Positions 8,009 through 41,083 of a DNA stretch of 41,323 nucleotides are shown one piece after another (position 1 is the stretch's first letter; each line of letters opens with the position of its first letter). The stretch spans positions 1-41,323 of the forward strand of contig JARLJB010000409.1 of the NCBI GenBank assembly GCA_031291415.1. The letters run 5' to 3'. Source of the DNA: Telmatospirillum sp. Its GTDB lineage: Bacteria > Pseudomonadota > Alphaproteobacteria > Rhodospirillales > Magnetospirillaceae. A program made the position numbers and the translations under genes. The notes beneath the pieces are model-generated. The model was not told the origin of the DNA and did not search any database. It worked only from the letters and a program-made list of their open reading frames with translations.

Positions 8009-8569
8009 ATGGCTCCAGACACTGCAGACCCCTCGCCGCAAATCAGCCGCGCGCAGCTTTTTCTCGGCTTCCTTAAAATCGGCCTGCTGGGGTTCGGCGG
8101 CGTCGCGCCGGTCGCCCGCCATATCCTCGTCGAGGACCGCAAATGGTTGAGTGAAAAGGACTACGCGGCGATCTTAGGGATAGGACAGGTCCTGCCCGGC
8201 GCCAATGTCACCAATGCCTCGATCATCATCGGCGAACGCTTTCATGGTCCCTTGGGTTCGCTGATCGCCCTCTCGGGCCTGATGGCCATGCCCTTGGTCA
8301 TCCTGATCGGCCTGGCCGGTCTTTATGACCATTTTTCCGGCCTCGTGCCCGTGCATGTGGCCATCGGCGGAACGGCCGCCGCCGCCGCCGGTCTGGTCAT
8401 CGGCACCGCGCTGAAAATGGCCAAACGGTTGAAACCCTCACCCATAGCCCTGGCGTTCGGCCTTGCCGCCTTTGCCGGAGCCGGGATTTTGCGCCTCCCG
8501 CTGATCGAAACCCTTCTGGTGCTGGCACCGCTTAGTATCGCCGCCGCGGCTTGGGAAAAACGCCGATGA
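8009..8569 (+). CDS. Chromate transporter family (CHR), first half-length subunit
   Basis: A 186-residue membrane protein of the chromate ion transporter family. The signature FLKIGLLGFGGVAPVARHILVE is followed by WLSEKDYAAILGIGQVLPGAN, the conserved pair of CHR blocks, and then five to six hydrophobic segments. Half-length CHR proteins work as pairs encoded by adjacent genes, which fits the second gene overlapping by four bases. The family exports chromate or related oxyanions by exchange, although many members have no tested substrate. The start is the ATG at 8009 with GGAAGG close upstream. Its place next to cowN is probably incidental. Confidence 0.88.
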   Translation: MAPDTADPSPQISRAQLFLGFLKIGLLGFGGVAPVARHILVEDRKWLSEKDYAAILGIGQVLPGANVTNASIIIGERFHGPLGSLIALSGLMAMPLVILIGLAGLYDHFSGLVPVHVAIGGTAAAAAGLVIGTALKMAKRLKPSPIALAFGLAAFAGAGILRLPLIETLLVLAPLSIAAAAWEKRR

Positions 8570-13347: not shown

Positions 13348-13803
13348 TTAGTCGCACCCGAGTTCTTCCTTGGCTTCATCGTTCGTTGCAAATCGCTTCC
13401 CGGTCTTCTCCATGATCCTCTTTTGGATGTCAGACAAGGTTCGAAACTGGTAACGCTTGCACAAGGTGGTTTCCCACACATCGCCGGTTCGCGGGCTGAC
13501 AGCAAATCCACCAATGACGTCAGTCGCTCCGGCTTTCGGTGAATCGTAGGTAACGAAGAAATTCACGTAACCTGGCACGAACTCTATATTTTCAATATTA
13601 AAGCCCGGTTTGTTCACCATTAGCTTTTCATGCTGGAGTACGACCACGAGTAATTGTCTTGCCTGATCAACCGAGAGTCCAGACGGTTGAACCTGCCTCT
13701 CGTCGAAACCGCCAGTGCCCGACGTGTTCTGACCAGCAGATGGCTGGGCACTTACGACGGCAATGACGGCCAGCGCGAGCAGTATGCGGGACAACGTCAA
13801 CAT
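13348..13803 (-). CDS. Secreted small protein, probable periplasmic immunity protein
   Basis: A 151-residue protein with a clear signal peptide (LSRILLALAVIAVVSA, residues 4-19) and a mature domain of about 125 residues. It contains two cysteines (Cys115 in TTLCKRY and Cys150 at the C-terminus) that could form a disulfide. No known family is recognised. Its start codon lies inside the 3' end of the glucosaminidase-like gene (7-base overlap), so the two are translationally coupled. A secreted partner overlapping a small peptidoglycan hydrolase that has no signal peptide is the typical layout of a type VI secretion effector and its periplasmic immunity protein. That role is inferred from context only. 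Base composition is visibly lower in GC than the flanking operons. Confidence 0.65.
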   Translation of the reverse strand: MLTLSRILLALAVIAVVSAQPSAGQNTSGTGGFDERQVQPSGLSVDQARQLLVVVLQHEKLMVNKPGFNIENIEFVPGYVNFFVTYDSPKAGATDVIGGFAVSPRTGDVWETTLCKRYQFRTLSDIQKRIMEKTGKRFATNDEAKEELGCD

Positions 13804-14252
13804 GACATACGCGCCTTTATCGTGCCGATGATGTCAACCAAGTATCGTTCGAAACCGGCGCGACCGCCCGTTCGCGGATCCCCAGAATTGTAACCCGAAC
13901 GCATAAGCGCCTGAGCGAATGCGTTCGGGTCTTCTTTGTCATAGACGGCCGAACCAAACCGCGCGGCGAAAGACTTCCCGCTTTGCAAAAATGACAAATA
14001 TGTTGCCACCTTGACATTGATCGCCCCCTGCACTGGAGCTTCCCCAGCTTGGAGAGGGGCCGGCGCATGCATTGAAAAATAGTTGTTGTGTTCCTTGGCA
14101 ATGCGGCCCTGCCCATACTGTGTTTCCTCGGCGGCCAAACCAAGAATATTTTCTGTCGGCACGTGAAGTTGCTTCGCTATCATTTCCGCATCGACTCTAA
14201 ACTTGGTAACGAATGCCATAGCCACCGGACTACTACACAAATTCCTAGGCAT
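13797..14252 (-). CDS. Glucosaminidase/lysozyme-like peptidoglycan hydrolase, probable secreted effector
   Basis: A 151-residue protein resembling GH73-type glucosaminidase domains. LGLAAEETQYGQG carries a Glu (about 43) where the catalytic Glu sits, HNNYFSMHA matches the NLFGIK-type block, and the C-terminal part (SFAARFG, AFAQALMRSGYNSG, YLVDII) fits the remainder of the domain. There is no signal peptide, so it must either leave by a specialised secretion system or act in lysis. The ATG at 14250-14252 is preceded by GGAG, and an in-frame stop lies seven codons upstream, so the gene is not a cut-off end of a longer Rhs or VgrG protein. It overlaps the secreted protein gene at 13348-13803. 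No secretion genes are in the window. Confidence 0.65.
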   Translation of the reverse strand: MPRNLCSSPVAMAFVTKFRVDAEMIAKQLHVPTENILGLAAEETQYGQGRIAKEHNNYFSMHAPAPLQAGEAPVQGAINVKVATYLSFLQSGKSFAARFGSAVYDKEDPNAFAQALMRSGYNSGDPRTGGRAGFERYLVDIIGTIKARMSC

Positions 14253-14595
14253 GTCGAATGTTCTCCGCCGTTATCGCGCTCCCGCTCCTCAAGCAACCTG
14301 GTGAGCGGCATCACCGGTGATTCGCTCAATCTGCATACGGATCTGCGCAGGTCCACGCCTCCGGCTATGCCACGCGTGCGTCATAGCTGCGAACCGAAGA
14401 CCTGTCCTGTGACATTTCTGTACGGAAAGCCGTCGGTGGGGCGCCGATAATTCGCTCGAGGCCGTAGCCGCCGCGACTGGCCATGTCTCAATGAGCCATC
14501 CTCGCCAACAGCGCCCTTGTTCGCGGAAATGGCTGGTGCTATTTTGTTCATTATTACGAACCTAGTTCTATTAGAAGAACTAACAAGCGGCGGAC
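14253..14595. other. Divergent intergenic region, effector gene / rhamnonate operon
   Basis: No gene is recognised in these 343 bases. The left two thirds are unremarkable mixed sequence. The right end holds the palindromic operator candidate and the promoter of the catabolic operon listed separately. Confidence 0.5.
14546..14582 (+). promoter_or_regulatory. Two adjacent palindromes upstream of the aldolase gene (candidate IclR operator)
   Basis: GTTC-N8-GAAC (14546-14561) is followed by a perfect 7-bp inverted repeat TAGTTCT-N6-AGAACTA (14563-14582). Both contain GTTC/GAAC half-sites and their centres are 19 bp apart. They end 13 bases before the ATG at 14596 and overlap the likely promoter. 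The IclR-family gene at 18485-19285 is the obvious candidate regulator. Confidence 0.55.
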
Positions 14596-15516
14596 ATGAT
14601 GAATACAGAGAGATTCCGAGGGGTCATCCCTCCCGTTCCAACGATCGTTGACGAAACCGGCGCTCTCGACAAAAAGGGAATGGCCGTGCTGATCGAGCGC
14701 GTCGTCGCCTCCGGCGTCAACGGCATGCTCCTTCTCGGCAGCGGTGGCGAGTTCTGCCACATGAGCACGGCGCTCCGCAAAGAGGTGGCGGAATTTACGG
14801 TCAAACAAGTGGCCGGACGCATGCCCGTTCTGCTCGGTGTCGGCGCCTGCGGTACCGCCGAGGTCATCGATCTCGGGCGTCACGCGGCGTCGATCGGTGT
14901 CGATGCCGTTCTCGTCGTCAACCCCTACTATGCGAAGCTGAGCGAAGAGGCGCTTTTCCGCCATTACCAGAAGATCGCGGCAACATTAGAGGTTCCGGTT
15001 CTGCTCTACAACTTCCCGGCCCTGACCGGCCAGGAGCTGACGGTCGAACTGGTCAAGCGCCTGGCGCTGTCCTGCCCCAATATCGTCGGCATCAAGGACA
15101 CCGTCGATTCGATCAGCCACACCCGACAGCTCATCACCGACGTGAAGTCGGCAAGACCGGATTTCCTGGTGTTTTCCGGCTTCGACGAATATTTGCTCGA
15201 TACACTGATCCTCGGCGGCGACGGCGGCGTTCCGGCCTCGTCGAACTATGCGCCGGACATTTGCTGCGGCATTTACAAGGCTTTTCAAAACAACGATCTC
15301 GCCGCGATCACCGGTCTCGAGCAGCGGCTCGCCCGGCTGATGCCGATCTATTCCCTCGACACGCCCTACTTCGGCCTGGTCAAGGAGGCGATCCGTCTGA
15401 CCGGGTCCGACATTTCGACAGCAGTCCTGGCGCCCGCTCTTACCCCCACCCCGGAAACCAAGGAGAAGCTCGTCGACATTCTGACCAAGGCCGGGGTGTT
15501 GCCCAAGGCCTCTTAA
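14596..15516 (+). CDS. DapA-superfamily 2-keto-3-deoxy-sugar-acid aldolase (YagE-like)
   Basis: A 306-residue class I aldolase of the dihydrodipicolinate synthase/N-acetylneuraminate lyase superfamily. The Schiff-base lysine is Lys167 (NIVGIKDTVDS), the catalytic tyrosine is Tyr138 (LLYNFPALTGQ), and the substrate loop is LGSGGEF (47-53). The N-terminal FRGVIPPVPTI and the blocks above are closely similar to E. coli YagE/YjhH, 2-keto-3-deoxygluconate aldolases, rather than to DapA. Beside an L-rhamnonate dehydratase it most likely cleaves 2-keto-3-deoxy-L-rhamnonate to pyruvate and lactaldehyde. Two ATG codons are in tandem (14596 and 14599). It is the first gene of the operon and is separated from rhmD by 77 bases. 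Confidence 0.88.
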   Translation: MMNTERFRGVIPPVPTIVDETGALDKKGMAVLIERVVASGVNGMLLLGSGGEFCHMSTALRKEVAEFTVKQVAGRMPVLLGVGACGTAEVIDLGRHAASIGVDAVLVVNPYYAKLSEEALFRHYQKIAATLEVPVLLYNFPALTGQELTVELVKRLALSCPNIVGIKDTVDSISHTRQLITDVKSARPDFLVFSGFDEYLLDTLILGGDGGVPASSNYAPDICCGIYKAFQNNDLAAITGLEQRLARLMPIYSLDTPYFGLVKEAIRLTGSDISTAVLAPALTPTPETKEKLVDILTKAGVLPKAS

Positions 15517-15593
15517 GGAACACGGAAACTCTATAACCCACGAGCTTCCAATAGTCATGCACCAACAATCTGCGATCAGTTTGGAGGAACATC

Positions 15594-16802
15594 ATGTCGC
15601 TACCTAAAATAAAAACCGTCCGGGCTTTCTTCATGGGCGGAGCGACCGATGACAAAAAAGGAAAAGGCGGCGGCGATTATCACGACCAGCCCGGCAAGCA
15701 CTGGATCGACGACCACATCGCCACGCCGATGAGCAAATACAAGGACTATGAGCAATCCCGCCAGTCTTTCGGCATCAACGTACTCGGTACGCTGATCGTC
15801 GAGGTCGAAGCCGACAACGGCGTGAAGGGCTTCGCCATCTCGACCGGCGGCGAAATGGGATGCTTCATCGTCGAAAAGCATCTCGTGCGTTTCATCGAAG
15901 GCAAATCCGTCTGCGATATCAAGCTGATCAACGACCAGATGCTCAACGCCACCATGTATTACTCGGGGTCCGGCGGCTTGGTGTTGAACACGATTTCCTG
16001 CGTCGACCTGGCTCTCTGGGATCTTTTCGGAAAAGTCGTCGGCCTGCCGGTCTACCAATTGCTGGGCGGCGCGGTTCGTGACGAGCTGCGCTTCTACGCC
16101 ACCGGCGCGCGGCCGGATCTCGCCAAGGGTCTCGGCTTCATCGGCGGCAAAATGCCCGCTCATTGGGGACCGCACGACGGCGACGAAGGCATCCGCAAGG
16201 ACGCCGCGATGATTGCCGACATGCGCGAAAAATGCGGCCCGGATTTCTGGCTGATGCTCGATTGCTGGATGAGCCAGGACGTCAATTACGCCACCAAGCT
16301 CGCCCATGCCTGTGCGCCTTCCAATCTCAAGTGGATCGAGGAATGCCTGCCGCCGCAGCAGTTCGAGGGCTATGCCGCGCTGAAGCGGAATGTCCCGCCG
16401 GGCATGATGGTCTCGACCGGCGAACACCATGGCACGCTACAGTCGTTCCGCACATTGTCGGAAACCGGCATCGACATCATGCAACCCGATGTCGGCTGGT
16501 GTGGCGGCCTGACGACGCTCGTTGAAATCGCCGCCATCGCCAAGTCGCGCGGCCAAATGGTCGTCCCGCATGGCTCGTCGGTCTATTCGCACCATGCGGT
16601 GATCACCTTCACCAACAGCCCGTTCAGCGAGTTCCTGATGAGCAGCGCCGACAGCGCGACCTTGCGGCCGCAGTTCGATCCGATCCTGCTCAACGAACCC
16701 GTTCCGCAAAACGGCCGGATGCATAAGTCGGTCCTCGACAAGCCGGGATTCGGCGTCGAGTTGAACCCCGCTTGCGACATCAAACGGCCTTACAGCCACT
16801 GA
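15594..16802 (+). CDS. rhmD: L-rhamnonate dehydratase
   Basis: A 402-residue enolase-superfamily dehydratase that turns L-rhamnonate into 2-keto-3-deoxy-L-rhamnonate. Mg2+ ligands are Asp223 (LMLDCWM), Glu249 (WIEEC) and Glu277 (STGEHH), with catalytic His326 in [11 protein letters not shown]; each is offset by three from the numbering of the characterised Salmonella enzyme. The N-terminal [19 protein letters not shown] and the middle [12 protein letters not shown] are RhmD-specific rather than general for the superfamily, and no truncation is seen. The ATG at 15594 has GGAGGAAC a few bases upstream, a strong ribosome binding site. Its neighbours, the aldolase and the MFS transporter, complete an uptake-dehydration-cleavage route. 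Confidence 0.95.
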
Positions 16803-16813
16803 CTGTGGGTCTC

Positions 16814-16847
16814 CTTTCCCGGCCGGCATGATGGCTGGCCGGGAAAG
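16814..16847 (+). other. Intra-operon hairpin between rhmD and the MFS gene
   Basis: A perfect 11-bp stem, CTTTCCCGGCC (16814-16824) with GGCCGGGAAAG (16837-16847), has a 12-nt loop and is followed by A-rich sequence rather than a T-run. It is probably an mRNA-stabilising or attenuating element that sets the ratio of dehydratase to transporter. Confidence 0.6.
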
Positions 16848-16906
16848 GGGCTAAACAAAAACAAGAAAAATAGCGCCTTCACAATTCACTCCGGGAGGGT
16901 GAGTTC

Positions 16907-18196
16907 ATGAATACTGTCTTAGAACAGGCCGTCGTAAAAACGCGATGGCGCCTGGTACCGTTCATGTTGTCTCTTTATATTCTTGCGTTCCTCGATCGTG
17001 CGAATATTGGGTTTGCCAAACAGGCCTATCAACTCGATACAGGCCTCTCCAATGAGGCTTTTGCCTTTGGTGCCGGTATCTTTTTCGCAGCCTATGCGTT
17101 TCTCGGTGCCCCCGCCAATTTGTTGATGAAGCAGTTCGGCGCCAAACGGTGGATCGGCTGTACGACGCTGGTCTGGGGTATCCTCTCCGCCTCGATGTCC
17201 TATGCCGACAGCGAATGGAAATTTTTGGCCATCCGCACGGCCCTCGGTGCTGCCGAAGCCGGCTTCTTCCCGGGGATGATTTATCTCACGTCGCAATGGT
17301 TCCCGCAGCGTTACCGGGCCGGCGTCATGGGGCTTTTCTATATGGGTGCGCCACTGGCCCTGACCCTTGGATCACCACTGTCCGGTGCCCTTCTCGAGAT
17401 GCACGGATTCGCCGGCCGCCCCGGTTGGTATTGGATGTTCATGGTCGAAGGGCTTCTGGCCGTAATGGCCGGTTTCTGGACATTTTGCTATCTCGACGAT
17501 CAACCGTCGGAAGCGCGTTTTCTCACGCAAGAAGAACGAGGAAGCCTGCTGGCGGAACTCGCCGGAGAGGAACGAACCAAGGAAACCTCGCGGATATCCG
17601 AAGCCATGCGTGATTTTCGCGTCTGGCATCTGGCCATCATCTATATGATCATCCAGATCAGCGTCTATGGCCTGATCTTCTTCCTGCCCACCCAGGTCGC
17701 GGCACTTCTCGGCACAACCGTCGGATTTACCGCCTCCCTCGTCACCGCCATTCCCTGGATCGCGGCGTTGGCGGGCACCTACTATATTCCGCGCTATTCC
17801 GACCGGACCGGCGAAAGACGAAACATTGCCGCCGTCACCTTGCTGGTCTCGGGCATCGGCATCGGAGTTTCCGCCGTTGCCGGTCCGGTCGTGGCAATCG
17901 GCGCCCTGTGCGCCGCGGCAGCCGGCTTCATCGCCGTGCAACCGGTATTCTGGACCATGCCGACCGGTATCTTGTCCGGCCGGGCGCTTGCGGCCGGCAT
18001 CGGCTTTGTCAATATGTTCGGCGCGATCGGTGGTTTTCTCGCGCCAATCATCCGGGTCAAAGCGGAATCCTATTTCGCCAATCAGGTGGCCGGATTGCTG
18101 ACCCTGGCCATCATCGCGATTGTCGGTTCCGCCGTTATCATGATGTTAAAGCGCGTTAGGGCCCTTCCCGCTCCCGAGACCGCCGCGGCGGAATAG
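16907..18196 (+). CDS. MFS transporter, anion:cation symporter family (probable L-rhamnonate permease)
   Basis: A 429-residue major facilitator with about 12 hydrophobic segments. The first helix region reads LSLYILAFLDRANIGFAKQAY, the signature of the anion:cation symporter (ACS) subfamily that imports sugar acids, tartrate and similar compounds; RTALGAAEAGFFPGMIYLTSQWFP follows in helix 4-5. In enterobacteria the RhmT permease of this subfamily is encoded beside rhmD, so L-rhamnonate is the likely substrate here. The ATG at 16907 is preceded by GGGAGGGTGAG. A strong terminator follows at 18214, so this is the last gene of the rhamnonate operon. Confidence 0.88.
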   Translation: MNTVLEQAVVKTRWRLVPFMLSLYILAFLDRANIGFAKQAYQLDTGLSNEAFAFGAGIFFAAYAFLGAPANLLMKQFGAKRWIGCTTLVWGILSASMSYADSEWKFLAIRTALGAAEAGFFPGMIYLTSQWFPQRYRAGVMGLFYMGAPLALTLGSPLSGALLEMHGFAGRPGWYWMFMVEGLLAVMAGFWTFCYLDDQPSEARFLTQEERGSLLAELAGEERTKETSRISEAMRDFRVWHLAIIYMIIQISVYGLIFFLPTQVAALLGTTVGFTASLVTAIPWIAALAGTYYIPRYSDRTGERRNIAAVTLLVSGIGIGVSAVAGPVVAIGALCAAAAGFIAVQPVFWTMPTGILSGRALAAGIGFVNMFGAIGGFLAPIIRVKAESYFANQVAGLLTLAIIAIVGSAVIMMLKRVRALPAPETAAAE

Positions 18197-18213
18197 GAAG
18201 GCAGACATCAAGG

Positions 18214-18249
18214 CCCCGGCGACCGGGTTTCGGTCTCCGGGGTTTTTTT
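18214..18249 (+). terminator. Rho-independent terminator of the rhamnonate operon
   Basis: CCCCGG(cg)ACC pairs with GGT(ct)CCGGGG around a short loop and is followed by seven T residues (18243-18249). It lies 17 bases after the transporter stop codon. Confidence 0.85.
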
Positions 18250-18347
18250 ATCCGGCTCCAGGACCTCTGTTGCAAGTTGTCGCCAGGATCCACACAATAA
18301 TAACGGGACTTATCCCGATTGTTCCGCTGCCATCAAGATTTTGACGA

Positions 18348-18476
18348 ACCACCAAGGCACCAAGAACACCAAGAAGTATGAAATACGTTCACCACGGAGG
18401 CACGGAGAACACAGAGGAGATGTCTATTGCGCTTCGCGCATTTCAATAATCTTGGTGCTCTTGATGCCTTGGTGGT
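18348..18476. repeat. 129-bp inverted-repeat element (MITE- or REP-like)
   Basis: The 26-bp arms 18348-18373 (starting ACCACCAAGGCACC) and 18451-18476 (ending CCTTGGTGGT) are complementary with two mismatches. The interior includes a GAGGCACGGAG motif and a small palindrome near 18428-18442. It sits between the convergent transporter and IclR genes. Repeats built on ACCAAGGCACCAAG occur between genes in many unrelated bacteria; their function is unclear. Confidence 0.65.
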
Positions 18477-18484
18477 TTTAATCT

Positions 18485-19285
18485 TTAATGGCGCCCCAGC
18501 GCATGCGAGATTTCATCGGCAACGGCACAAACCCGCTTGGCAAGATCGGGGAAATCATCCGGGCCGATCTGCAGAACGGTGCCGACGGCGCTGATCGCCG
18601 CGACGGCATTGCCGCTACGATCGAAGACCGGGGCCGCGACACAGCGGATGTTGGCAAGGTCTTCTTCGTCGTCCACCGCCCACCCACGGGCCCGGACCTC
18701 GCGAAGATGCTCCCGCACCGCATCGGCGTCAGGCAGCGACTTTGGCGTTTTGCGAATCCACTCGATGTCGGCCAACAGTCTCTCCCGCTCCGCATCGGGC
18801 TGCCACGCCAGCAAAACCTTGCCGAGCGACGATCGGTAGAGCGACAGGCGTTTGCCGACCCAACTGTTGATTCTGATGTCCTGATCGGCCTCGACTTTCG
18901 CGAGATAGATGGCTTCGTGTCCTTCAAGGACACCGAGATGGCAGGTCATTCCGACCTCGCGCGCCAGTCCCTTCAGGAAGGGCGCCGCCTCCTGCTCAAT
19001 CGAGCGTTGGCTGGCCGCGATAGCGCCCAGTTCACTCAGCTTCAGCCCCAGGACGTAACCGCCCTCCGGTCCATCTTGCAAGGCGCCAAGACAACAAAGC
19101 GCACCGATCAACTGATGCGCGCTGCTTTTTGGCAAATCGAGCGTTTTCCGGATGGCGGTGAAACTTATTCCCGCCTCTCGGGACACCAGGTCCAAAACGG
19201 AAAAGGCCTTGTAGAGGGCGGGCACCGCCGGCCGGTTGGCTGTGGCGGCCGCCTCATTTGGCGCCGATGTCGGATGCTCGTTCAT
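18485..19285 (-). CDS. IclR-family transcriptional regulator
   Basis: A 266-residue regulator. Residues about 22-85 form the winged helix-turn-helix (VPALYKAFSVLDLV, ISFTAIRKTLDLPKSSAHQLIGAL), and the rest is the IclR effector-binding domain (SLYRSSLGKVLLAWQ, RGWAVDDEEDLANIRCVAAPVFD, AAISAVG). IclR regulators bind small carboxylic acids and usually control a nearby catabolic operon. Here the gene is convergent with the rhamnonate operon, whose promoter carries tandem palindromes (14546-14582), making that operon the likely target with a rhamnonate-related effector. It lies downstream of the Dcu transporter on the same strand, so that gene is an alternative target. Confidence 0.93.
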   Translation of the reverse strand: MNEHPTSAPNEAAATANRPAVPALYKAFSVLDLVSREAGISFTAIRKTLDLPKSSAHQLIGALCCLGALQDGPEGGYVLGLKLSELGAIAASQRSIEQEAAPFLKGLAREVGMTCHLGVLEGHEAIYLAKVEADQDIRINSWVGKRLSLYRSSLGKVLLAWQPDAERERLLADIEWIRKTPKSLPDADAVREHLREVRARGWAVDDEEDLANIRCVAAPVFDRSGNAVAAISAVGTVLQIGPDDFPDLAKRVCAVADEISHALGRH

Positions 19286-37755: not shown

Positions 37756-38466
37756 TTACGGAGCTGAAGACAGCGCGAACACTACCGGCACCTCTACTTC
37801 GATTCCTCCGTGCGGAGGCGGCGGAAGGCGCTCCAAATGCCGAATGATCCGGACCGCCTCCACCTCCAATAAGCCATCCTCATCGCCACCAACCAACCTG
37901 ACGGAGTTCTCTGGTACGCGTCCGTCGTCCGAAATGGCAAAATGCACGAACACGCGTCCGGACAATCCCAAGCGGCGAGCGGCCGCGGGAAATCGCACCG
38001 CGTCCTGAATCAAACTGCGGACTTTCGCCAAATAGGCGTCCATGGTCCCTCCCCGGCCGTCACCGTCCCCGGCCTTCGCGGGCGCCGTTCCTGTGCCTGT
38101 CGCCACATGGGCCGGCCCGGTGCCGACCGTCGCGGCCGCCGGAACGCCATTGGCTGTAACGATCAGAGAATCCGGCATTGAGGGCTGAGACGTCACCGGC
38201 CGCGGCGGTGCCGGCAGGGAGATCGGGCGTGGACGTTGCACCGCCCAAAGTTGCCGAATCACTGTCGGCGCGGCCGCCAGCGGGAATTTTGGTTCCAAGA
38301 TGGGAACAGGATCACGGGGCTTTGGCGGCACGGCGAAGACGATGACCACCTTTTCCCGCGGTGCGACCCTGGTCGGTTTTGACTCGTGCCAAAAGCAGCC
38401 GATCAGCAGCGCATGCAACAGCACGGTCAGCACGGCGGGCCGCCAGCGGGCTCGACACGATGTCAT
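37756..38466 (-). CDS. tonB: TonB energy-transducing protein
   Basis: A 236-residue TonB-family protein. One N-terminal membrane anchor (PAVLTVLLHALLIGCFW, about 10-26) is followed by a proline-rich periplasmic spacer (for example VFAVPPKPRDPVPILEPKFP) and a C-terminal TonB domain (YLAKVRSLIQDAVRFPAAARRLGLSGRVFVHFAISDDGRV). It transmits proton-motive energy from ExbB/ExbD to outer-membrane receptors. The ATG at 38464-38466 directly precedes the anchor; an in-frame GTG at 38581-38583 would add 39 residues and is less likely. ExbB and ExbD are absent from the window. It is divergent from the receptor gene at 39044, so it is probably its dedicated partner; both promoters carry related palindromes. 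Confidence 0.87.
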   Translation of the reverse strand: MTSCRARWRPAVLTVLLHALLIGCFWHESKPTRVAPREKVVIVFAVPPKPRDPVPILEPKFPLAAAPTVIRQLWAVQRPRPISLPAPPRPVTSQPSMPDSLIVTANGVPAAATVGTGPAHVATGTGTAPAKAGDGDGRGGTMDAYLAKVRSLIQDAVRFPAAARRLGLSGRVFVHFAISDDGRVPENSVRLVGGDEDGLLEVEAVRIIRHLERLPPPPHGGIEVEVPVVFALSSAP

Positions 38467-38606
38467 CGAGAACCCACCGCCCAGGCGGATACCCAACAGT
38501 CTGCCAACCGCTTCGGCAGCATTTTCTTGCAACCACTCCGTTTCAAATGGCGCCACGGCACTGCCGCCACACCCAGCCACCACCGGCCTAACAAACGATT
38601 GACCAA

Positions 38607-38636
38607 CTTATATCCAGTTAGATATAACGGCGTCAA
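38607..38636 (-). promoter_or_regulatory. tonB promoter with an embedded Mo-box-like palindrome
   Basis: On the minus strand TTGACG (38636-38631) and TATAAG (38612-38607) are 18 bases apart. Between and across them lies TTATATC-N6-GATATAA (38608-38627 on the plus strand), continuing to GATATAACG. The right half matches the TATATAACG half of the Mo-box at 38957-38965 in 8 of 9 bases; the left half is poorer. A repressor bound here would block the promoter. Confidence 0.5.
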
Positions 38637-38930
38637 AGATAATGGCCACGGACCAAAACGGCCAATGTTTTTCTGTCATCCGAAAAAACAATTGAAGCAT
38701 AAATGTGCCAAAGGCTTATCCACGAGCATCCCGCACCTCACGAATCCGGTAGCCTGCTGCCTCTGGCATGTTGGAATAGATGGGAAACCTGCGTTCTGGA
38801 GGTCTCTTATCATGAGAGATCTCAGATGATACCTCTGGAAGCTCAGGAATGAGCCGGCATCAATATTTGATTTTTATTACATTATTTGCGTACGCGATCG
38901 AAATACGTGCATAAACGTCACACTGTGTCC
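38637..38930. other. Central part of the tonB/receptor intergenic region
   Basis: No gene is recognised in this part of the 577-bp divergent region. It contains nested short hairpins around 38799-38835 (GAGGT...ACCTC outside ATCAT...ATGAT) and an A/T-rich block at 38868-38930 before the receptor promoter. No known riboswitch consensus was identified. Confidence 0.4.
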
Positions 38931-38965
38931 TTGTGCACTTCGTTATATACGTTATATATATAACG
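38931..38965 (+). promoter_or_regulatory. Receptor promoter with a perfect Mo-box palindrome
   Basis: CGTTATATA (38941-38949) and TATATAACG (38957-38965) are exact inverted repeats separated by 7 bases; an inner 16-bp perfect palindrome (38950-38965) overlaps the right arm. This matches the form of ModE/Mop binding sites (Mo-boxes, CGnTATATA-N6/7-TATATAnCG) known from Rhodobacter and related bacteria. A plausible -35 TTGTGC (38931-38936) and -10 within the A/T repeat (38954-38960) put the site over the core promoter, 79 bp before the receptor ATG. Confidence 0.65.
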
Positions 38966-39043
38966 CTCATGCTTTGGTGAATTTGCGGTGAAAAATGCAC
39001 CCCGGCGAACGGGGGGCGACATCGCGCCAAGAATGGGGAAATA

Positions 39044-41083
39044 ATGATGAAATGGGCGTCTTTGCTAACGACGGTCGCGGTCTGTGCCGTGGCCGCTCCG
39101 GCATATGCTGACGATGTCGGCAAGGTCTTCGGCTTGGGTCAAGTTACGACGACGGCGACCGTGCCGGATGGATCCGAATATGGTGGGGCGAGCGTCTCCC
39201 AGGACGAGTTGCGCGAGTTCAACCGTGATACGCTCGACAAGGCGCTGACACTGGTCCCCGGCGTGTCGATCAACTCCACCGGCGGCCGTAACGAAGCGAA
39301 CATGTGGATCCGCGGCTTCAACCACTGGCAAATTCCACTCAGCATCGATGGCATTCCTGTCTACCTGCCCTATGACAACCGTCTGGACCTCAGCCGTTTC
39401 ACGACGTCGGCCATCAGCGAGATTCAGATAACCAAGAGCTACACCTCGGTTATCGACGGCCCCGGAGCCATGGGCGGTTCGGTCAACCTGGTGAGCCGCC
39501 AAGTCTCGAAGCCGCTCGAAGGAGACGTGCGCTTCGGCACCAGCTTCGACGGCAACGGTGCTTTCAACGGCTTGGTAACCGACATCTTCACCGGCACCAA
39601 GCAGGACAAGTGGTACGTCCAGGCCTCGGGTACCGAGAACTACAAGAACCACTGGGCGCTGTCGGACGACTACACCGCCAACAAGTATGAGAACGGCGGC
39701 AACCGCAACATGTCCTATTCCCAGGACTACAATATCAATGTGAAGGCCGGCTTCACGCCGTCGGCCGATGACGAATACAGCCTGAACGTCATCAACCAGA
39801 ACGGCGACAAGGAAACCCCGCCGCCCACGACCGCCTCCACCAGCAAGTTCTGGACATGGCCGGACTGGGACAAGCAGAGCGTCTTTTGGCTGTCGAAGAC
39901 CAGCCTGGACGACCACGGGTCCTACGTGAAGGTCAAGGCCTACTACGACCGCTTCTACAACGTCCTGAAAATGTGGGACAACTCCAACTACAACACGATG
40001 AACAACAAGGGGTCCGAGATCAGCACCTACGACGACCGGGGTGCCGGCGGCAGCGCCGAATTGAGCGAGATGCTGTTCGACGGGCGGGACAATCTGCGTC
40101 TGGCTACGCATTTCCGCTGGGACCAGCACAACGGTCAGGACCGCGGCAACATGCTGAAGGCCAATTCATGGCTGGCCCAGCCATGGACCCATGCCGCCGA
40201 GAACACCTATTCCGAGGCGATCGAGAACACCTTCCATCCGGCCAAGGCGTGGGATCTCACCGCCGGCTTCGCCTACGATTACAGGCAGATGATCGATGCC
40301 GACGCCTGGAACACGTCGTCCAGCGGCAGCAAGCTGATCCATGTGAACTATGTGCAGTCGGACAAGCATGCGATCAACCCGCAGGCCGCGATCGCCTACC
40401 ACTTCGGCAATGCCGGCGTCGCCCATTTCAGCGTGTCCGACCGGACACGCTTCCCCACCCTGTTCGAAATGTTCAGCAGCCGCTTCGGCAGCGCGACGGG
40501 CAATCCCTATCTGCAGCCGGAGAAGACCGTCAACTTCGAGACGGGAGTGGCCGAAACGTTCGGGCAGACCCGCCTCGGCGTCAACCTGTACCGCAGCCGC
40601 GTAATGGATGCCATCGAGTCGGTGGCGGTGACCAGCACGACTTCGCAGAACCGGAACGTCGGCACGGAAGTCCATCAGGGTTTCGAACTGGAGGCTTCAA
40701 GCCAGGTCCTGCGTGATCTGGAAATCGGCGCCAACTATTCCTATCTGCAGCGGACGCTCACGACCTACTCCGGCATCCTGGCGACCGAGACGCCGAAACA
40801 CCACATCTTCGGCTATGCCAACTGGAAGCCGGTCGACGGCTTGTCGGTGGTTCCCAGTGTGGAAATCGGCGGCAAACGCTGGCTGCAAAGCTCTACCAAC
40901 AATTACAATTACTTCCGCGGCGGCGACATGGCCGTGGCCAACCTCAAGGTCGGCTACGACGTGACCAATAATCTCAATATCGAGATCGGCGCCAACAATA
41001 TCTTCGACGCCAACTATATGGTCGAGGACGGCTATCCGGCGCAGGGCCGCAACTACTTCGCCAATATGCGTGTGACGTTCTAA
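39044..41083 (+). CDS. TonB-dependent outer-membrane receptor
   Basis: A 679-residue TonB-dependent receptor. The signal peptide (WASLLTTVAVCAVAAPAYA, residues 4-22) is followed by a possible TonB box (GQVTTTATV, about 32-40), a plug domain (DTLDKALTLVPGVSINSTGGR, then NEANMWIRGFN, and SVIDGPGAMGGSVNLVSR), and a 22-strand barrel rich in aromatic residues ending in NMRVTF with the C-terminal Phe expected for an outer-membrane protein. The start has two ATG codons (39044, 39047) after GGGGAAAT. The ligand cannot be told from sequence, but the promoter Mo-box points to molybdate, a molybdenum chelate or a related metal complex. It is divergent from a tonB gene with a similar operator. Confidence 0.93.
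   Translation: MMKWASLLTTVAVCAVAAPAYADDVGKVFGLGQVTTTATVPDGSEYGGASVSQDELREFNRDTLDKALTLVPGVSINSTGGRNEANMWIRGFNHWQIPLSIDGIPVYLPYDNRLDLSRFTTSAISEIQITKSYTSVIDGPGAMGGSVNLVSRQVSKPLEGDVRFGTSFDGNGAFNGLVTDIFTGTKQDKWYVQASGTENYKNHWALSDDYTANKYENGGNRNMSYSQDYNINVKAGFTPSADDEYSLNVINQNGDKETPPPTTASTSKFWTWPDWDKQSVFWLSKTSLDDHGSYVKVKAYYDRFYNVLKMWDNSNYNTMNNKGSEISTYDDRGAGGSAELSEMLFDGRDNLRLATHFRWDQHNGQDRGNMLKANSWLAQPWTHAAENTYSEAIENTFHPAKAWDLTAGFAYDYRQMIDADAWNTSSSGSKLIHVNYVQSDKHAINPQAAIAYHFGNAGVAHFSVSDRTRFPTLFEMFSSRFGSATGNPYLQPEKTVNFETGVAETFGQTRLGVNLYRSRVMDAIESVAVTSTTSQNRNVGTEVHQGFELEASSQVLRDLEIGANYSYLQRTLTTYSGILATETPKHHIFGYANWKPVDGLSVVPSVEIGGKRWLQSSTNNYNYFRGGDMAVANLKVGYDVTNNLNIEIGANNIFDANYMVEDGYPAQGRNYFANMRVTF

Follow-up and report, generated by a model that had tools for sequence, protein, structure and literature searches.

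The stretch of DNA studied here, called the window below, is the whole 41,323-nt contig JARLJB010000409.1 (C255) of a 7.1-Mb Telmatospirillum genome (G000; assembly GCA_031291415.1). It encodes a TonB-dependent receptor of 679 aa (39044–41083, plus strand) divergent from a tonB gene, and the receptor promoter contains an operator of the Mo-box type. We consider that the window probably holds a molybdenum-starvation uptake module, in which a ModE-repressed TonB-dependent receptor would take up molybdenum, either as molybdate or as a chelate. The computation yielded the operators, ModE and Mop proteins in the genome, an operator conserved across the receptor family, mod genes that are linked to the receptor and co-occur with it, and, in relatives, a partner protein fused to ModA.

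The operator lies at 38941–38965, ends 78 bp upstream of the receptor ATG (39044), and reads CGTTATATA-N7-TATATAACG, which can also be written CGNTATAT-N9-ATATANCG. An exact inverted repeat had been described at this place in the initial annotation, and it was recovered here as a genome-unique element: there is 1 match in the window and 0 in 100 shuffles, the exact palindrome occurs at a single place in the 7,144,923-base genome, and about 1e-8 chance occurrences are expected for the intergenic region at its own base composition. An exact 16-bp palindrome (CGTTATATATATAACG; 38950–38965) is nested inside it. Compared with the Mo-box CGNTATAT-N8-ATATANCG, the arms have 0 mismatches and the spacer is N9, not N8; the N9 spacer is also found at modA promoters in several genomes of the same clade. 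When up to 3 mismatches were allowed, the N9 pattern gave 4 forward places in the whole genome versus 2 for the reversed control, so only the exact match stands out. ModE-type control of the receptor is well supported by computation, and ModE would be expected to bind this operator.

The element is also present upstream of orthologous receptors, a comparison that had been proposed together with the inverted repeat. A family-level search covered 55 genomes including that of the window, and all 10 genomes with a receptor have a site with at most 3 mismatches, either directly before the receptor (8 genomes; G000, G051, G052, G047, G043, G036, G035 and G029) or before its operon (2 genomes; G014 and G015). 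In the latter two, genes for a solute-binding protein and for a di-haem oxidoreductase precede the receptor gene; the site has 0 and 1 mismatch, respectively. Orthologues in the two same-genus genomes having one are 71% and 63% identical to the window receptor. In a scan of named genomes, 80 of 174 relatives were kept, and the best match to CGNTATAT-N8/9-ATATANCG (14 fixed letters) was scored in up to 400 bp upstream. Sites with at most 1, 2 and 3 mismatches are found in 22, 43 and 63 of these 80 loci, while the controls gave 3/800 (other places in the same loci), 1/800 (shuffles) and 2/420 (promoters of other long open reading frames, ORFs) at 2 mismatches, and 13/800, 8/800 and 4/420 at 3 mismatches. 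Moreover, when exact 6-bp inverted repeats with gaps of 0–20 were counted blind, CTATAT-N8-ATATAG came first (38 of 80 loci), and the runner-up (9) is contained in this element. Judged by its letters, this family operator is the same element as the E. coli ModE consensus, which is given as ATCGNTATATA-N6-TATATANCGAT in the available text of PMC545781 and in nearly the same form in that of PMC2700814.

The genome encodes the expected regulator. Lack of a ModE or Mop protein had been named as a finding that would speak against a Mo-box, and both are present: a full-length ModE with a helix-turn-helix (HTH) and two TOBE/Mop domains is encoded on C145, and modA, modC and mop are on C365, with modB (named by translation) between modA and modC. 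Two short ModE-HTH proteins are encoded on C229 and C134. AnfD (1102 bits) and AnfG (180 bits) are both above cut-off and indicate an iron-only nitrogenase, and several nifH genes were found, with two more represented by N-terminal parts that run to contig ends. The organism is therefore likely a diazotroph, as had been supposed. The supposition had leaned on a CowN protein in the window, for which no counterpart was seen among the ORFs covered by a non-exhaustive scan. The genome also holds a second nitrogenase-like cluster. On C196 (L178:2028-5843 and 13436-18596), iron-only nitrogenase genes with a NifA-like regulator have a nitrogenase-like HDK set beside them, whose D and K proteins reach no cut-off and which we assume may be a methylthio-alkane reductase.

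Linkage ties the receptor family to molybdenum genes. In 24 of 80 loci, a ModE-type gene is found no more than about 7 kb from the receptor, and in 6 of 80 a ModA homologue is near it; in one genome (G029), modA is divergent from the receptor and sites are located in the shared region. ModE is encoded in 48 of 50 receptor-bearing genomes tested (a non-random choice from the 80) compared with 120 of 387 genomes of the class, where the latter were searched at a laxer threshold and shared ancestry is uncorrected in both figures; the class sample includes 6 genomes with the receptor, 2 of which have no ModE. Two loci of the named genomes (L104 and L089) miss both ModE and the site. We also compared the spacers of receptor and modA sites in 20 genomes, counting those in which both sites have at most 3 mismatches within 400 bp. 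The spacers agree in 13 of 13 comparable genomes (6 N9/N9, 7 N8/N8, none mixed), with register ties when the gap was left free. These pairs fall into two clades, so the agreement is consistent with the proposed control rather than independent evidence for it. As a separate observation, genomes with N9 operators seem to have long ModE frames (265–300 aa), and those with N8 operators mostly a short ModE with the HTH only; three genomes with long-frame ModE (G459, G460 and G480) carry N8 operators.

In 58 of 80 loci, the genes near the receptor include one for a relative of a small periplasmic protein, mostly oriented divergently from the receptor gene, and in the two loci that were read (L059 and L087) the operator stands between the divergent starts of the two genes. 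In L057 and L126, this relative forms the C-terminal part of a ModA protein (BLASTP E 3e-12 for L057). The small protein has no Pfam match (one tested) and no meaningful NCBIfam match (four tested), and its model is mostly beta (predicted local distance difference test, pLDDT, 88.8). An HGxGPxCxxIRK-like motif was seen in it (L059:6313-6846 and 57 other loci).

The tonB gene (37756–38466, minus strand) encodes 236 aa from the ATG at 38466, which we prefer as start although the ORF opens at a GTG at 38583, and has a TonB_C domain (PF03544; TIGR01352, 42.1 bits with a cut-off of 27.1). It is separated from the receptor gene by the region 38467–39043. This divergent tonB gives the receptor a TonB partner, and tonB genes also lie near the receptor in several relatives. 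A possible tonB promoter lies at 38607–38636 on the minus strand, with TTGACG (38636–38631), an 18-bp spacer and TATAAG (38612–38607; letters checked). The initial annotation had placed a weaker palindrome over it, and this is indeed present: ACTTATATC-N6-GATATAACG at 38606–38629, which corresponds to the N8 form with 2 mismatches, overlaps the TATAAG (-10) and fills the spacer towards the TTGACG (-35). However, N8 patterns at 2 mismatches number 32 in the forward direction across the genome versus 22 and 18 for the reversed pattern, so the tonB-side site is only suggestive and draws on its position; by letters alone it is not significant, and it is much weaker evidence than the receptor site. 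A sigma-70 promoter scan, which demands a T at the end of the -10 and so excludes TATAAG, listed neither proposed promoter and gave one other site (0.9 expected by chance). Elsewhere on the contig, a protein with a chromate-transporter domain is encoded at 8009–8569; chromate is likewise a group 6 oxyanion.

As for the receptor itself, Plug and beta-barrel domains were both found, as in TonB-dependent transporters, and the model is an ordinary plug-barrel (pLDDT 84.4; predicted template modelling score, pTM, 0.83). It belongs to an unnamed family, below every NCBIfam cut-off listed; for the siderophore-receptor model TIGR01783, it reaches 131.5 bits with a cut-off of 223.5. Invariant in 42 family sequences are Arg 82, 113, 221, 358, 467, 469 and 612, Lys 131 and 234, His 362, and Trp 270, 272 and 275, a set that would suit an anionic or catecholate ligand.

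Other Mo-box-like sites occur elsewhere in the genome. There is a 3-mismatch site upstream of modE. A site at C270:67901-67925 (N9, 1 arm mismatch) precedes a second TonB-dependent receptor (TBDR2), a Peripla_BP_2 protein and a FecCD permease, and this operon (L138:6902-14001) continues with an ATPase, ExbB, ExbD and a TonB-like protein, which were named by eye from translation; the TonB-like frame extends past the part that was covered. TBDR2 is above the siderophore-receptor cut-off, and pyochelin receptors are nearest to it among PDB sequences. A site at C207:3625-3648 (N8, 0 mismatches) precedes a DUF2478-DUF4213-DUF364 gene (putative heavy-metal chelation) and a Peripla_BP_2 protein, and this operon (L140:3625-8300) continues with a FecCD-type permease and an ATPase, also named by eye. 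The solute-binding protein of C207 matches Haemophilus HI_1472, which we take to be MolA, at E 2e-15 as third-best PDB match behind 4pag and 4ovk, and its relative in T. siberiense, whose gene lies downstream of the receptor, matches HI_1472 at E 3e-14, again as third-best PDB match. Two further sites (C231 and C59) have no sensible target gene.

These operons bear on an iron explanation, by which the window receptor would take up iron or xenosiderophores under ModE, molybdenum shortage leading to use of the iron-only nitrogenase and thus to higher iron demand. The anfD and anfG genes and the siderophore-like TBDR2 agree with it, and so does Azotobacter vinelandii, where three TonB siderophore receptors with ATP-binding cassette (ABC) genes are described as being activated strongly through VnfA1, and only when Mo and V are missing (available text of PMC9542535). 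We nevertheless judge it unlikely, as the window receptor does not reach the siderophore cut-off that TBDR2 passes, and family members accompany mod genes, with the partner fused to ModA in two loci. A tie to iron-only nitrogenase alone would presumably also fail to account for the operator in so many sphingomonads, a group whose nitrogenases lay outside the analysis.

Several points weigh against molybdenum uptake under ModE. The relatives are not independent: at 50% identity the 80 receptors fall into 10 clusters, and 66 of them belong to two of these; among cluster representatives, 4 of 10 have a site with at most 2 mismatches and 8 of 10 with at most 3, and 6 of 10 clusters have some member within 2 mismatches. 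Seventeen of 80 loci are without a site of at most 3 mismatches (L051, L058, L072, L074, L077, L088, L089, L095, L104, L106, L109, L110, L111, L112, L122, L127 and L128); L051 and L058 carry the site in front of the operon, and L122 offers just 133 bp of upstream DNA. ModE is nonetheless encoded in 14 of 16 tested genomes whose receptor has no site within 400 bp. For the Acetobacter receptors L074, L106, L109 and L128, no clear operator was seen, even though a ModE-type gene is present in these genomes. The initial annotation had also proposed looking for the palindrome at mod and anf genes, and the outcome is divided: it occurs at modA of several relatives, but the modA promoter of the window genome has a weak N9 site with 4 mismatches, and inspection of the anf regulator revealed no Mo-box site. 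Azospirillum (G459) has an N8 site with 3 mismatches at the receptor, and its nearest good modA site is N9 at -931; this genome was left out of the 13 spacer pairs and would be a mixed pair if counted.

Molybdenum sensing is moreover unproven in many N8 relatives because their ModE seems to be HTH only, as judged from frame lengths with one example domain-scanned. An HTH-only relative of ModE might recognise the operator and respond to a signal other than molybdate, which would put the system outside molybdenum control. The receptor-linked ModE-type proteins of the 24 loci counted above, which have about 140 aa, the two short ones in the window genome, and the single-domain ModE of Desulfovibrio and Desulfotalea, whose sensing is described as unclear in the consulted part of PMC545781, fit this idea. 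We regard it as decidedly unlikely, since ModE frames are long in the window genome and in those N9 relatives that were tested, and modA promoters of relatives share both element and spacer.

A last point concerns copper. A MauG/MbnH-type gene lies near the receptor in 40 of 80 loci (one scanned), and such a neighbour may mean a redox step or else keeps a copper reading alive, the more so as the copper transporter OprC is the best Foldseek match to the receptor model. The protein could then be a copper or methanobactin-like receptor with a di-haem neighbour and a small partner, as in MbnP/MbnH/TonB-transporter sets; MbnP/MbnH pairs are reported near MbnT-type transporters in the accessible text of PMC3621798. 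The scanned di-haem protein, however, reaches 284 bits with the MbnH model against a cut-off of 363, and no MbnP model is among the matches of the four small partner proteins that were scanned. In VIA-align, FecA and BtuB rank ahead of OprC. OprC-type copper receptors have a Cys/Met copper site, which the window receptor does not show: Cys is absent from it after residue 25, and none of the columns conserved in 85% of the 42 family members is Cys or Met. A copper substrate would also leave the operators and the mod linkage unexplained, and we hold it to be very unlikely.

From the above, the preferred reading remains a molybdenum receptor under ModE. With sufficient cytoplasmic molybdate, molybdate-bound ModE would occupy the receptor palindrome, and perhaps the tonB palindrome, and block transcription. 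When molybdate is scarce, ModE would leave, and the receptor and its dedicated TonB would be made and would actively bring molybdenum, as molybdate or Mo-chelate, into the periplasm, from where ModABC or a Mo-box-controlled MolABC-type ABC transporter would take it on. ModE binding, repression by molybdenum, the substrate and transport are the steps that we infer in this scheme. Molybdenum is the likely cargo, in the form of either molybdate or a chelate. ModE and ModA-type proteins bind both molybdate and tungstate, and the sequence offers nothing that separates the two oxyanions; the nitrogenase set of the genome (tungsten enzymes were not searched for) argues against tungstate as main cargo, to which we give very little chance.

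A wider picture can be drawn more tentatively, and as a whole it has somewhat less than an even chance of being right. The receptors may form a molybdenum-specific TonB-dependent family in Sphingomonadales, Rhodospirillales, Rhizobiales and some Gammaproteobacteria, accompanied by a small periplasmic partner that can be fused to ModA and often by a MauG-type di-haem enzyme. In Telmatospirillum, the Mo regulon might comprise two TonB systems together with a MolABC-like importer of Mo-chelates (molybdophores). N9 operators would be read by full-length ModE and N8 operators by its HTH-only relatives.

To our knowledge, no TonB receptor belongs to the classical ModE regulon, and no outer-membrane receptor belongs to MolABC (Haemophilus HI_1470-1472), to which the solute-binding proteins of C207 and T. 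siberiense are likened through HI_1472, just the third-best PDB match in both cases. With the ModE regulon (E. coli ModE; MopA/MopB of R. capsulatus), the system shares operator sequence and symmetry (available text of PMC545781), a repressor with HTH and two TOBE domains, and the operator at modA promoters of relatives, but here the operator stands at TonB-dependent receptors and perhaps at tonB, and its spacer in this lineage has one extra base (N9). Fur-controlled siderophore receptors, Zur-controlled ZnuD and OprC resemble it in plug-barrel fold, TonB partner and metal-starvation logic, and FecA, BtuB and OprC are close folds; it differs in the ModE-type operator, in the conservation of Arg, Lys and Trp instead of Cys and Met, and in reaching no NCBIfam cut-off. 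The VnfA1 receptors of A. vinelandii are likewise TonB receptors made with ABC operons without Mo and V, though under a sigma-54 activator and not a ModE operator (available text of PMC9542535). An outer-membrane step in molybdate uptake is also described in Pseudomonas aeruginosa, where the H2-T6SS (a type VI secretion system)/ModA/IcmP route employs secreted ModA and the outer-membrane metalloproteinase IcmP (portions available of PMC8602904 and PMC11734730), and TonB receptors are reported as up in N2-fixing Zymomonas (PMC8600466, available part).

A limited literature search found no published ModE-controlled TonB receptor, only related ideas. Molybdate is usually taken to reach ModABC by diffusion through porins, and we know of no receptors for the Mo-siderophore complexes of nitrogen fixers. 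Mo-type operators before the window receptor and many of its relatives point to an active outer-membrane route for molybdenum. A receptor family under ModE-type operators and tied to ModA offers a concrete gene with which TonB-dependent molybdenum uptake becomes testable, and it would bear on the metal supply of nitrogen fixers in Mo-poor acid peat and soil.

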